From: Spirochaetes bacterium GWF1_51_8
GTDB taxonomy: Bacteria > Spirochaetota > Brevinematia > Brevinematales > GWF1-51-8
Direction: 5' to 3'
DNA length: 36,741 bases
Assembly: GCA_001829415.1 (NCBI GenBank)
Contig: MIBE01000032.1
Span: forward strand, 1-36,741
Below are positions 5,499 to 26,084 of this stretch, piece after piece (the first letter of the stretch is position 1; each line of letters begins with the position of its first letter). The notes below the pieces were generated by a model. The model saw nothing but the letters and a program-made list of their open reading frames with translations, did not search any database and had not been told where the DNA came from. Made by a program: the position numbers and the translations under genes.

Positions 5499-5517
5499 GG
5501 TTTATCCTTAAAATTTA

Positions 5518-5556
5518 TTTCGGGTATTATAGCTCGATTTGCCCGAAAAGTGAATT
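5518..5556 (-). promoter_or_regulatory. ridA promoter with internal 7-bp inverted repeat
   Basis: Minus strand TTCACT (5554-5549), 17 nt, TATAAT (5531-5526). Two arms, TTTCGGG (minus-strand 5548-5542) and CCCGAAA (5524-5518), flank the -10 box with a 17-nt gap, a layout expected of a repressor operator. The whole 39-nt block is repeated at 6675-6713 with one mismatch. Confidence 0.7.
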
Positions 5557-6658: not shown

Positions 6659-6674
6659 TTCGCCGCACCTTTCA

Positions 6675-6713
6675 TTTCGGGTATTATAGCACGATTTGCC
6701 CGAAAAGTGAATT
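6675..6713 (-). promoter_or_regulatory. Cyclase promoter with internal 7-bp inverted repeat
   Basis: Minus strand TTCACT (6711-6706), 17 nt, TATAAT (6688-6683). TTTCGGG (minus-strand 6705-6699) and CCCGAAA (6681-6675) bracket the -10 box exactly as at ridA. AAAGGTG then stands seven bases before the cyclase ATG. Confidence 0.7.
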
Positions 6714-20134: not shown

Positions 20135-20195
20135 TTCGCTTTCGCGGGAATGATGCAGGCGATATGAGTCTCTTGTGTGATGGAAAACGGGAAAT

Positions 20196-20314
20196 TCACA
20201 CGGAGAACACGAAGAAATGATATCTGCGGTTTGTTTAAGAGATATGAATTTCAACTTGAAGCTCTCTTTAATACCCGGCTTCGGTTTCAGTCTCTTTGTA
20301 CTCTGCGTGAAACG
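20196..20314. repeat. 115-nt direct repeat, copy A
   Basis: Runs from CACGGAGAACACGAAGAAATG through GCGGTTTGTTTAAGAGATAT to CTCTGCGTGAAAC. Matches 20509-20623 with scattered mismatches. Confidence 0.8.
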
Positions 20315-20508
20315 TCTTCTCGCAATCCGCCTCGTTACTCTCCGCTCTGCGGAGATACTCGGCGTCCGGTCGCCCTTTGGCAAGGCTTGGACACTTCGAC
20401 TACGCACCCCTTTGGGGCACAAGCTCAGTGTCCGGTTACCGAGCGAAGCCGAGGCACCCACACTCCGACTTAGGCTTCAATGTCGGGATAAACCGAAAGA
20501 AGTATTTC

Positions 20509-20623
20509 GCGCGGAGAACACGGAGAAATGATATCGGCGGTTTGTTTAAGAGATATGGATTTCGACCGGAGGCTCTTTTTTAATATCCGGCTTCTGTTTT
20601 AGTCTCTGTGTGCTCTGCGTGAA
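20509..20623. repeat. 115-nt direct repeat, copy B
   Basis: Second copy, starting CGCGGAGAACACGGAGAA. This opening is the near reverse complement of the phrase TTCTCCGTGTTCTCTGCGCG at 319-338, linking these repeats to those at the left end of the window. Confidence 0.8.
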
Positions 20624-22134: not shown

Positions 22135-22449
22135 ATCCACCTCCGGAAATATTTGAACTCTCTTTTAAAAATATCCTGTCCGCCAGCACCCGCCTCAATC
22201 CTTCGTACAAATCGGGGGCTGAGCATGTAACTAACCGTTACAAAAGAAATTAACAATGCGATTCTGTTCCATAGTTCATTCTATCTATCATATTCTAAAG
22301 ATGCGGATAAAAACTGTCAAATCCATCGCCGGAATATACTCTATGTGTGATATGCATAACAGGAAAATAAGTTATTAAATTACAGACATTCATTTGACAC
22401 ATCTGAATTGAATAAATACAATAACCATATAAGAAATAAGGAGGAGCAT
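22135..22449. promoter_or_regulatory. Divergent intergenic region with promoters
   Basis: This 315-nt stretch separates two divergent envelope genes. On the plus side TTGACA (22394-22399), 17 nt, TACAAT (22417-22422) serves the repeat lipoprotein, with AAGGAGGAG directly before its ATG. On the minus side only a weak TTGAGG-17-GATATT is visible about 35 nt before the GGAGG site. I see no gene or larger repeat in it. Confidence 0.6.
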
Positions 22450-24105
22450 ATGGTTAAGTCGATGTTTGTGAAAAGGTATCTCGCGATACCGCTGTTCGGT
22501 ATCATCGCGCTGTTGAGCGCATGCGGCGGCGGGGCTGTCCGGCCGACAATCCACCCGTGGAGCGGCGACGGCAACGTTTTCTCGGCACAATTCCATGGGC
22601 CGGTTTCCGCGCCTCAATGGGGCCCCGGATACTGGAAAATTCCCGACGACGCCAGATTTGTCTTCCAGGTCTCTTACGCGATTTATTATGTCGATAAGGA
22701 CGGGAAGATCCTCAACGCGTATAACAATCTCCCTTCCGGAACTTTTGAAAAGACGATTGTACCCCCGACCGCGAAAATGATCTTCCCGTTGATGAGCGGC
22801 TCGATAGTCCATCTCGGTCAGGACGGATACCTCTACCATACCGAAAAGGGCGTAAAGCTCATGTATGCCGTGCCCGGGAAAGATGAGTTCGCGGAATTCC
22901 CGAAACTCCCCGACGGCGTCCGTTTCGTATTCCAGACCCCGGATTATCAGATATACTTTATCGATAAGGATGGCGGGGTCTATCACGCCGAGACACAAAA
23001 ACCGCTCGAAGGTAAAAAGGGCAAAGCTATGACTGTTCCCGCCGATTGTATTTACGCTTTCCCTATCGAAACCAAGGACGGCACGGATATTTATTACTTC
23101 ACCAAAAACGGGAAAATGTATGTAAAAGATGAAAAGAAAGAACATCCTTCGTACTATATTCCCCCGGACGCAAAGTTCATTTTCGATGCGTGGGGATATA
23201 TCCTCTACGTGCCCGCGGGTAAAACAGAAAACTATTCCAATGTAGTCGCGTTACAGCAGAACAATCGTATCTATAACGCGCTGACCCAGACTGAAATCGG
23301 CGTATTAGCGAAAAAGGACGGAAAGGAAGAGTTTAAGCCTTATACCGTGCCCGGCGACGCCTTGAACGTCTTCTCGGTGGACGGCGCGCTTTTCTATCTC
23401 GCTAAAGACGGATTTGTGTACGGGTTAAGTTCGAAGGAAAAAATCTTTATAGACAAAAAACCGGTCGCGATCCCCACCAACGCCCGGTTTATCGCTCCCT
23501 CGGATATCGGAAGCAAGCTGTCGTATGTCGGTATCGATAACAATATCTACGACGCGGTCAGCGGGACGATGATTACGGCGTTAGGCGACAACAAGAGCGA
23601 ATTCAAAGGTATTTTCAAACCGGCGACAACGACTAAGATGAAGATCAATGTCACCAATAAAGACGGGAAGCTCGAGGAGAAGGAATTCGTGATCAGCGCG
23701 ATGGGAACGATTAAGCTTGTACCCCCCGACGCGAAAAACTTTATCGGCGTCACGCTTTACAAAACGCCCACTTATCTGTATGTCTCGGGCGGCAAGTTCT
23801 TCAACGCGATGATACCTAATAGTCCGACCCCCATTTTCGATAAAGAGAATTTTCCCCAGGGCTGGAATATCGATGTACCCTCCGACCTGCGCTTCCTGTT
23901 CTACTCAGAGGAGTTCAGCGATCAGGGCAAGGGCCTTTACTATGTAAGCTGGTACGACGGGTGCGTGTACGACCTTGTTACACGGAACCGTATCCATCTC
24001 GGCGGCGTTCCGTACTATGTTCCCGTTCACGCAACGTCGATCATAGTTGAGAAGGGCAAGCTGTACTACACGGTGGATATCAAACCCGTCGAAGAGAAGA
24101 AGTAA
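22450..24105 (+). CDS. Large lipoprotein with about ten beta-type repeats
   Basis: A 551-residue lipoprotein (lipobox LSAC, Cys25). The motif [IVL]P.[DGN]A[RK]F.F recurs about ten times, at roughly residues 64, 104, 153, 196, 237, 300, 341, 424, 476 and 524. After most copies comes a strand pattern like IYYVDKDGKILNA or IYFIDKDGGVYHA. Unit spacing is mostly 40-50 residues with two longer ones, which suits a beta-propeller or stacked beta repeats exposed outside the cell. I do not recognise a named family. AAGGAGGAG is four bases before the ATG; an in-frame ATG at 22408 lies inside the promoter and is rejected. A perfect terminator follows 23 nt behind the stop. Confidence 0.82.
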   Translation: MVKSMFVKRYLAIPLFGIIALLSACGGGAVRPTIHPWSGDGNVFSAQFHGPVSAPQWGPGYWKIPDDARFVFQVSYAIYYVDKDGKILNAYNNLPSGTFEKTIVPPTAKMIFPLMSGSIVHLGQDGYLYHTEKGVKLMYAVPGKDEFAEFPKLPDGVRFVFQTPDYQIYFIDKDGGVYHAETQKPLEGKKGKAMTVPADCIYAFPIETKDGTDIYYFTKNGKMYVKDEKKEHPSYYIPPDAKFIFDAWGYILYVPAGKTENYSNVVALQQNNRIYNALTQTEIGVLAKKDGKEEFKPYTVPGDALNVFSVDGALFYLAKDGFVYGLSSKEKIFIDKKPVAIPTNARFIAPSDIGSKLSYVGIDNNIYDAVSGTMITALGDNKSEFKGIFKPATTTKMKINVTNKDGKLEEKEFVISAMGTIKLVPPDAKNFIGVTLYKTPTYLYVSGGKFFNAMIPNSPTPIFDKENFPQGWNIDVPSDLRFLFYSEEFSDQGKGLYYVSWYDGCVYDLVTRNRIHLGGVPYYVPVHATSIIVEKGKLYYTVDIKPVEEKK

Positions 24106-24128: not shown

Positions 24129-24157
24129 AAATCCCCCGGCGCAAACCGGGGGATTTC
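24129..24157. terminator. Perfect bidirectional terminator hairpin, copy 1
   Basis: AAATCCCCCGG-CGCAAA-CCGGGGGATTTC: an 11-bp perfect stem with A-rich and T-rich flanks. Ends the repeat lipoprotein transcript. The same 29 nt recur at 25122-25150 in the same orientation. Confidence 0.9.
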
Positions 24158-24182
24158 AGTTTATCAATCCATTTGAATAAAA

Positions 24183-24211
24183 TTGACTTGAATTTAAAAT
24201 ACAGGTAAAAT
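24183..24211 (+). promoter_or_regulatory. Promoter of the AT-rich membrane-protein gene
   Basis: TTGACT (24183-24188), 17 nt, TAAAAT (24206-24211). The first ATG (24217) is only five bases behind the -10 box, so the transcript would be leaderless or translation begins at the ATG at 24241; neither has a ribosome site. Confidence 0.5.
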
Positions 24212-24216
24212 ACTCT

Positions 24217-25122
24217 ATGTGGGACAATAACATACCTATAATGATTTATCCAGTTTTATCTAATAAACCAGATTGTTTAGAATATGTATCTTTAATTGCT
24301 ACAATTTTACTGACTGGAGCAACTGCATTTCTTACCTTCTTTTTAGTAAGGTATACAAAAAGACAGACTGAGGTAAATGAAAAACTAGAAAGAATTGAAA
24401 GAAAGCGGTTTGAAGAAGAGAATAAAGAGGAAGTAATTTTATACAATTTAGAACAAAAAGAAGTTATTGTTTTTTCTGAGAATAATAGTATTGAATTCTA
24501 TTATTCGTATATAATAAATTTGATAAATAATAGTCAAAAAGTACTGCAAGGAATAAAAATCTTGGTAGAAACCAAAGGAATTCATAATTCTATGCATACT
24601 AAGAAGATATACATTCCTTTTATGTTAAAAAATGAAATTTACAGTTTTGAAAGTAGAGTTTATTCTATGATAACTCTAATTAATTATGATCAATATAAGT
24701 ATCTAACAAATGATACAAATGAAATAGAAGCACGCAGAAGGACAGATAGCATTACATTACCATTAAATGAAATCTATAAAGAAGACCCAAATATTGAATT
24801 GTTTAAAGAAGTAAAAACCGAACAAAACTATTATTCCCATATAAAGTACTTAGGAGAAATCGTTGAAAATAAAATAAATAGGTTTTTGCAAAACAATGAA
24901 AATCAAAAAAATAATTTCGGAAATCAGCATAGTCGCATTGAGGTCTTACACTATTTATTCATAGATGATCAGGAATATATAAATACTTTAAACAAAACTG
25001 AAACTCTAAAAGTTGAAATAATAAAGAATGGAGAACTGTCATCCGAAGATAAATTTATTAACCAAATAGAAATTGCTTTACAGCCGCATTTAGGACAAAT
25101 AGTCGATTCAGAAATAAAATGA
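24217..25122 (+). CDS. AT-rich gene for a one-TM protein of unknown function, probably acquired
   Basis: A 301-residue protein. One membrane helix at about 24-46 (SLIATILLTGATAFLTFFLV) is followed by a charged coiled coil (about 50-75, EVNEKLERIERKRFEEENK) and a long cytoplasmic part without recognised domain. G+C is by eye near one quarter, against about one half around it, with AAA, ATA and TTA codons dominating, so transfer from another genome is likely. It sits between two identical terminator copies; the second begins at the last base of its stop codon. No recombinase, transposase or partner gene accompanies it. Such one-TM coiled-coil proteins occur among anti-phage and stress genes, but nothing here proves that role. 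Confidence 0.75.
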   Translation: MWDNNIPIMIYPVLSNKPDCLEYVSLIATILLTGATAFLTFFLVRYTKRQTEVNEKLERIERKRFEEENKEEVILYNLEQKEVIVFSENNSIEFYYSYIINLINNSQKVLQGIKILVETKGIHNSMHTKKIYIPFMLKNEIYSFESRVYSMITLINYDQYKYLTNDTNEIEARRRTDSITLPLNEIYKEDPNIELFKEVKTEQNYYSHIKYLGEIVENKINRFLQNNENQKNNFGNQHSRIEVLHYLFIDDQEYINTLNKTETLKVEIIKNGELSSEDKFINQIEIALQPHLGQIVDSEIK

Positions 25123-25150
25123 AATCCCCCGGCGCAAACCGGGGGATTTC
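25122..25150. terminator. Perfect bidirectional terminator hairpin, copy 2
   Basis: Identical over 29 nt to 24129-24157. It ends the AT-rich gene on the plus strand and, read on the minus strand, lies 17 nt behind the stop of cbiM. Flanking bases after both copies (ATCA within 12 nt) also look alike. Confidence 0.9.
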
Positions 25151-25166
25151 TATTGATCAGGTAATT

Positions 25167-26084
25167 CTATGCTTTGACTGCGGCGGGCTTGGGATTGAAG
25201 ATCAAGCCGGTCAGGATCGAGACAGCGAACACGGCCGCGATGCCGATCAATCCGGCGGCCGATGCCGAAAGAACCGGATCGCTCAGGAACGGTGCGGCGT
25301 AATCCGCTATCGGGGCGACAAATAACGGCGCGGCGTCATGCAGGGCGTTGAACTTCGCGGCGGCCCACTCGAGACCGTCGGGCAGCGCGCTCGCGAACGG
25401 GCTCAAGACAAGCGCGATCACTCCCGCCGATGCGAGAGGTAACGCGAACGAGAGCTTCGCGGAGCGGCGGACCGTCCTGTTCTCGAACATCGCGGCAAAC
25501 GCTCCGGTCAGGATACCCTCGCCGATGCCGATCAGAAGGTGGACGGAGAGCATCGCGGGTAATGCGGCGGATAACGCAATCGCGCCGGAAACACCGAGCT
25601 CGACCGCGCAGGCAATCGAAGCGAGTACAGTCGAAAGCCATGACGCGAACACGACGAGTCCCAATTTAAGCGGAATGTTCCCGGATATCTTTTCGTTTTT
25701 CAGGATGAAGCCGAGGATAATCCCCGGGATCGAGGCGACAAGCGCCATATTGAGAATGTTCGTGCCGAGCACCATCAGGCCGCCGTCAGCGAACAAAAGG
25801 GTCTGCACCGCGAGGACGATCGCCATCGAGATGACCCCGAACGGCGCGCCGAGCGCGAGCACCGCGAGGGTGACGCCGATCATGTGCCCGGAAGTGCCGT
25901 CGAGCACCGGGAAGTTCAGCATCTGCGCGGCGAAGATCAACGAGGTGACCGCTGCGAATTTCAGCGCGGCGGGTTTATCTTTGGACTTGACCGCGAAAAA
26001 GGCGGCGGCGGCTATCCCTGCAATCGCCAATCCGGCGGTCACGGGGCATATCGGACCATTAACCATATGTTCAGGAATATGCAT
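25167..26084 (-). CDS. CbiM/NikM energy-coupling factor transporter subunit with fused PDGLE domain
   Basis: A 305-residue membrane protein that binds Co2+ or Ni2+ for uptake. The mature start MHIPEHM supplies the metal-binding N terminus with His2, and GTSGH gives His67, both essential in the family. About seven helices make up CbiM (1-200); a PDGLEWAAAKF motif at 235-245 marks the C-terminal PDGLE (NikN/CbiN-like) domain, followed by a last helix. The usual CbiQ and CbiO partners are absent here, as the gene is flanked by a terminator and by divergent thrS. GGAG stands close before the ATG. No cobalamin riboswitch fits in the 158-nt upstream gap. Confidence 0.9.
   Translation of the reverse strand: MHIPEHMVNGPICPVTAGLAIAGIAAAAFFAVKSKDKPAALKFAAVTSLIFAAQMLNFPVLDGTSGHMIGVTLAVLALGAPFGVISMAIVLAVQTLLFADGGLMVLGTNILNMALVASIPGIILGFILKNEKISGNIPLKLGLVVFASWLSTVLASIACAVELGVSGAIALSAALPAMLSVHLLIGIGEGILTGAFAAMFENRTVRRSAKLSFALPLASAGVIALVLSPFASALPDGLEWAAAKFNALHDAAPLFVAPIADYAAPFLSDPVLSASAAGLIGIAAVFAVSILTGLIFNPKPAAVKA

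Follow-up and report, generated by a model that had tools for sequence, protein, structure and literature searches.

An AT-rich gene between two identical hairpins, and other gene-end-bracketed inserts in a Spirochaetes genome

The gene between the hairpins

How does a single AT-rich gene come to lie between two identical hairpins, with the genes on both sides of it intact? The question is raised by a 36,741-nt stretch of the genome of Spirochaetes bacterium GWF1_51_8, the whole of which we call the window. Its two hairpins, R1 (24129..24157) and R2 (25122..25150), are assigned to neither strand and were characterized by sequence comparison, folding and a genome search. They agree at 29 of 29 bases, and each forms a perfect 11-bp stem (AAATCCCCCGG / CCGGGGGATTT), as a sequence-only reading of this DNA had described, around a 6-nt loop. 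Flanking sequence supplies a 12th pair at the stem of R2. Beyond the 29 nt the two copies diverge (38 nt can be aligned at 92%), and both edges of the repeat match the edges of the hairpin; it is a terminator-type repeat rather than a coding end. Folding energies are −20 to −25 kcal/mol. We infer a terminator function, and no Rfam family matches in the window at gathering thresholds. The 29-nt sequence occurs only at R1 and R2 in the whole genome (3,543,039 bases, up to three mismatches allowed), which excludes an ordinary terminator used genome-wide. In 1.47 Mb, 124 perfect hairpins have stems of 9 bp or more, and among them R1 and R2 form the only identical pair within 5 kb.

Upstream lies gene A (22408..24105, plus strand), an open reading frame for a repeat protein with a lipoprotein-like signal at its N terminus, recognized by eye, and with no Pfam match. 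R1 occupies nucleotides 24 to 52 after its stop codon, and the gene A transcription unit is predicted to end there. The convergent neighbor, gene B (25167..26084, minus strand), encodes a cbiM/PDGLE cobalt-uptake protein (PF01891, E = 2e-40), and R2 stands at the 3′ ends of both this gene and the inserted one. The 964 nt that separate the hairpins have a G+C content of 26%, against 51% for the genome, in agreement with the AT-rich gene first noticed in a window of about one-half G+C. Only 0.045% of windows of this length are equally AT-rich. The insert is occupied by a single plus-strand gene (24217..25122; 301 aa, 26% G+C), whose TGA stop codon overlaps R2 by one base. Its product has a predicted N-terminal membrane or coiled helix. 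The family is restricted to the host genus among 296 genomes of the phylum; the gene has no Pfam family above cut-off, no PADLOC match and no relative in viral contigs. Structure prediction gave an unusable model (mean pLDDT 43.6). A sigma-70-like promoter (TTGACT-17-TAAAAT, 24183..24211, plus strand) precedes the gene, and because the ATG follows the −10 hexamer by 5 nt, the mRNA is probably leaderless. By eye, members of the family have a −10-like hexamer 5 to 6 nt ahead of the ATG (window 24183-24217; loci L015, L017 and L018 near position 1500), a spacing that suggests leaderless mRNAs.

Related genomes support the view that the AT-rich gene is an insert at a convergent lipoprotein-cbiM junction. 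Gene A has orthologs at 57 to 60% identity in two relatives of the same genus, G001 and G003; a search of genome contigs for gene A returned none. In G001, the gene A and cbiM orthologs converge 152 nt apart with no gene between them and one strong hairpin. This bears out the expectation that the two genes would converge on a single terminator without the insert, although this hairpin differs in sequence from R1/R2. Since its stem motif also recurs elsewhere in G001, the comparison shows an uninterrupted junction but not the sequence that preceded insertion. In G003, the gene A ortholog is followed by a hairpin and then, to the end of the contig, by an apparent IS3-type transposase (by eye), and cbiM lies on a separate contig, adjoining another gene. 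The gene A-cbiM junction is thus variable.

Inserts bracketed by gene ends across the genome

A scan of 1.47 Mb of the same genome found 15 bracketed inserts, the present locus and 14 more; further cases occur in G001 (C22:94820) and in G003 (C7:9326, with a second, shorter case at C10:26090). The inserts measure 442 to 2670 nt and the bracketing repeats 24 to 163 nt. The 14 others, many of them AT-rich, are bracketed by copies of the end of the upstream gene. In most, the homology stops at the stop codon or a few nucleotides from it, and the orphan copy is always on the insert's far side. Mean G+C is 0.38, compared with 0.51 for the genome, and none of 5000 random draws fell below 0.43. By equal criteria, 11 distinct gene ends (plus one low-complexity place) were found displaced downstream of their gene, against three gene ends upstream, two gene starts upstream and one gene start downstream; the latter were mostly short open reading frames in repeat-rich stretches. 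The single-contig relative G007 was uninformative as a control because large repeat clusters fill all classes. Seven of the 42 AT-rich islands in the examined stretch are bracketed in this way, and most islands are not detectably so.

The present locus likely belongs to this class. A paralog of the inserted gene at another place on its contig (C32:87252; 37% identical over the first 75 residues) is bracketed by a direct repeat (C32:86395-88195) whose 63 nt are the last codons of its own upstream gene. On contig C77, the repeat combines a coding end with a terminator-like hairpin and is a bridge between the coding-end and terminator forms of bracketing repeat. Other cargo with duplicated flanks does exist in the genome, but none of it is bracketed by the same 29 nt, for which the sequence-only reading had proposed to search. 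Apart from R1/R2, the bracketing repeats consist of coding 3′ ends; most of them have no hairpin, and no 8-mer is common to them beyond chance.

The cargo includes an HNH endonuclease that resembles known defense effectors (C63), a GmrSD-type restriction enzyme (C2) and a protein that matches HSDR_N weakly (C77). Also present are a PIN protein, a kinase accompanied by response regulators, and products that gave no match. For the GmrSD cargo, a search of genome contigs matched two distant MAG loci. The junction of gene A and GPX holds the HNH gene in this genome, whereas in G003 it holds a Cas9 gene and a CRISPR-like array. In this junction (locus L159, G003:C10, 5698-6652), a glutathione-peroxidase-like gene borders directly at its 3′ end on a CRISPR-like array, and a Cas9 gene is on that contig.

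At C63:105962, the two copies of the repeat differ at eight sites, all synonymous, so both have evolved as functional gene ends. In several repeat pairs the two copies have different stop codons at corresponding positions (TAA/TAG, TAG/TAA and TAG/TGA, among others). The C77 orphan carries a stop mutation and the orphan at C10:24665 a frameshift, which marks these orphans as decaying leftovers. In our own reading of C63, derived bases tend to lie leftward in one copy and rightward in the other, a layout that weakly suggests a crossover within the repeat, as in Campbell integration. The synonymous-only divergence is also compatible with an imported allele; a donor genome with gene A ahead of the cargo was not found. 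No homology was seen to the left of the second copy in the aligned cases, in keeping with a non-homologous joint on that side.

Other repeats were observed alongside. In the window (5514-5556 and 6671-6713, minus strand) and at locus L044 (15881-15915 and 16459-16493), near-identical promoter-like stretches, with TATAAT 17 nt behind a −35-like hexamer, stand upstream of two successive genes. Between them lie either a cyclase gene (PF00211, with a weak match to a Pycsar cyclase) or a pair of small open reading frames. These duplications are possibly the gene-start counterpart of the gene-end duplications. Dispersed 'TTCACACGGAGAACACGGAGA...' repeats (window 20195-20269 and 20506-20580; L048, L098, L100 and others) occur throughout the genome, often as inverted pairs or in tandem.

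Proposed one-sided insertion and its rivals

With about even confidence, we read the locus as an example of a one-sided insertion, anchored by homology, that recurs across the genome. Incoming DNA would carry a homologous copy of the end of gene A, followed by a foreign AT-rich gene. The donor copy would pair with the resident gene A, which would acquire the donor's gene end, terminator and cargo, while the other side of the incoming DNA would join, without homology, at a position slightly ahead of the end of the resident gene. Beyond the cargo, this original end (here the terminator hairpin) would stay as a displaced copy. Both neighbors would remain intact, and the leftover R2 would now stand where the cargo gene and cbiM both end. 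Such a process would be homology-facilitated illegitimate recombination (HFIR) or an equivalent one-sided anchored event, and both it and the donor are what we infer from the footprints. In its favor count the 15 bracketed inserts and the cases in G001 and G003, the low G+C of the inserts, the excess of displaced downstream gene ends over the control arrangements, the lack of a common motif, the synonymous-only differences at C63, the decayed orphans, the paralog bracketed by another gene's end and the different cargo of the gene A-GPX junction in G003. A mechanism of this kind has been put forward for Vibrio T6SS loci whose 3′ ends are shifted (PMC5361080) and for small variable segments (PMC2884548). 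The upper limit on repeat length may reflect the instability of longer repeats. Several observations count against one-sided insertion: the scan yielded no convincing orphan gene starts, which anchored insertion would be expected to leave; in the absence of a detected Ku, the illegitimate joint must have formed by some other route; at this locus the repeat is of the terminator type, limited by the hairpin edges; the layout at C63 weakly suggests a crossover within the repeat; and the search gave no donor genome. ComEC is present, but the same search also matches in E. coli and is no proof of competence.

Rather than a target, the hairpin is more probably a passenger: it marks where the neighbor's transcription unit ends. 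The sequence-only reading had taken it for an insertion target, which the coding 3′ ends elsewhere, mostly hairpin-free and with no common motif, argue against. Repeats ending at stop codons, and the eight differences at C63, all synonymous, contradict its alternative of a classical target-site duplication. A plain duplication of the target would give identical copies, positioned independently of stop codons. A transposon that prefers hairpins and duplicates its target is the least probable of the readings considered here. In its favor, the repeat is exactly the hairpin at the present locus, and the genome has one Y1-transposase domain (Y1_Tnp), with no tie to the bracketed sites, and an IS110-type match below cut-off. 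The other inserts, however, mostly lack hairpin brackets: the 29-nt hairpin has two copies only, and no family of dispersed palindromes marks the insert ends. Repeat lengths vary rather than being fixed, their ends cluster at stop codons instead of falling anywhere, and diverged copies differ only synonymously. The lone Y1-transposase domain (G000:C43:7128-7442) sits inside an open frame reported as 1183 aa, unusually long for such a protein.

Integration through attachment sites at gene 3′ ends is the main rival, serious although unlikely. Here a copy of the host gene end would act as the attachment site and restore the gene, with the integrase acting in trans or since lost. A strict bias toward gene ends fits this reading, as do the direct repeats at the locus, identical over 29 of 29 nt like an attL/attR pair. 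We used prophage e14 of E. coli at icd/icdC as a measured yardstick. Its 165-nt repeat includes the stop codon, is identical at 153 of 165 positions (nine synonymous and two nonsynonymous codons) and loses identity 1 nt past the stop. The architecture equals that of our inserts except for size and integrase: in both, a coding 3′ end with its stop codon brackets the insert and the differences are mostly synonymous, and mcrA adjoins the orphan icdC as single defense-like genes do here. Unlike our inserts of 0.4 to 2.7 kb, which show no recombinase and occupy many unrelated targets, e14 spans 15 kb and carries intE and xisE. No recombinase domain was found in the inserts searched, as had been noted for the present one, and no site-specific recombinase cognate to the 29-nt repeats was identified in the insert or the genome. 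The assembly, 93.5% complete, holds just two Phage_integrase genes (PF00589, assigned at family level only) and no PF00239 resolvase, which leaves the trans-acting mobilizer once suggested for this locus unsupported. With no common target motif, many different integrases would have been needed, and none is left.

Circles bearing a short copy of a host gene end, integrated by single-crossover homologous recombination through RecA and able to leave again, are quite unlikely. At 24 to 163 nt, the repeats are of sufficient length for RecA, the process needs neither an enzyme nor a motif, and the weak crossover pattern at C63 would fit. Against this, neither a circle nor reuse of a unit in another genome was seen, and members of one cargo family lie next to different genes and between different repeats, which means that the unit itself is not portable. 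More doubtful again is the idea that this genus has many recombinase-free cassettes in which a short gene-end copy (coding tail or terminator) would serve as homology arm for host recombination, which would bring in and take out single, often defense-like genes and leave the neighbor's end complete each time. An assembly artifact, in which two strain alleles were set in series during metagenome assembly, is unlikely, with only a slight chance. In its favor, the assembly consists of 77 contigs, 45 N-runs occur in 1.47 Mb, and both C63 copies are intact alleles. Linearized bubbles, however, would also produce adjacent tandem copies, and none occur at gene ends here; orphans with nonsense or frameshift changes do not represent a working allele from another strain; the exactly identical copies vary in length, unlike the product of a fixed overlap; and stretches of G001 and G003 without N-runs still show the pattern.

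Relation to known systems and significance

One-sided insertion has a close parallel in Vibrio T6SS arrays and in Rhs loci, where a conserved gene segment provides the anchor, new genes are added behind it and the former 3′ end moves downstream, leaving orphan immunity genes and shifted effector 3′ ends (PMC5361080). Here, in contrast, the anchors are ordinary genes, the displaced piece is only 24 to 163 nt, and the cargo is often defense-like and recurs at many sites in one genome. For small variable segments, no description of bracketing by duplicated gene ends was found in the survey (PMC2884548). An HFIR-like process resembles published proposals (PMC5361080 and PMC2884548), but in the literature searched, neither how often it occurs in a single genome nor the small size of the displaced gene ends appears to be described. 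Our literature search, whose searchable scope held few subscription papers, found no description of single-gene inserts bracketed by gene tails. In the minimal mobile elements of Neisseria, single genes are exchanged between conserved flanks by host recombination. Their junctions are clean, without the displaced copy of the neighbor's end that is found here.

It is an open question how single defense genes spread when no mobile-element genes accompany them. The genome examined here has about fifteen arrival footprints, each marked by a displaced, datable copy of a neighbor's end, and these copies make the donor, direction and age of each arrival testable. An orphan gene tail behind a foreign gene is a simple signature to seek elsewhere.
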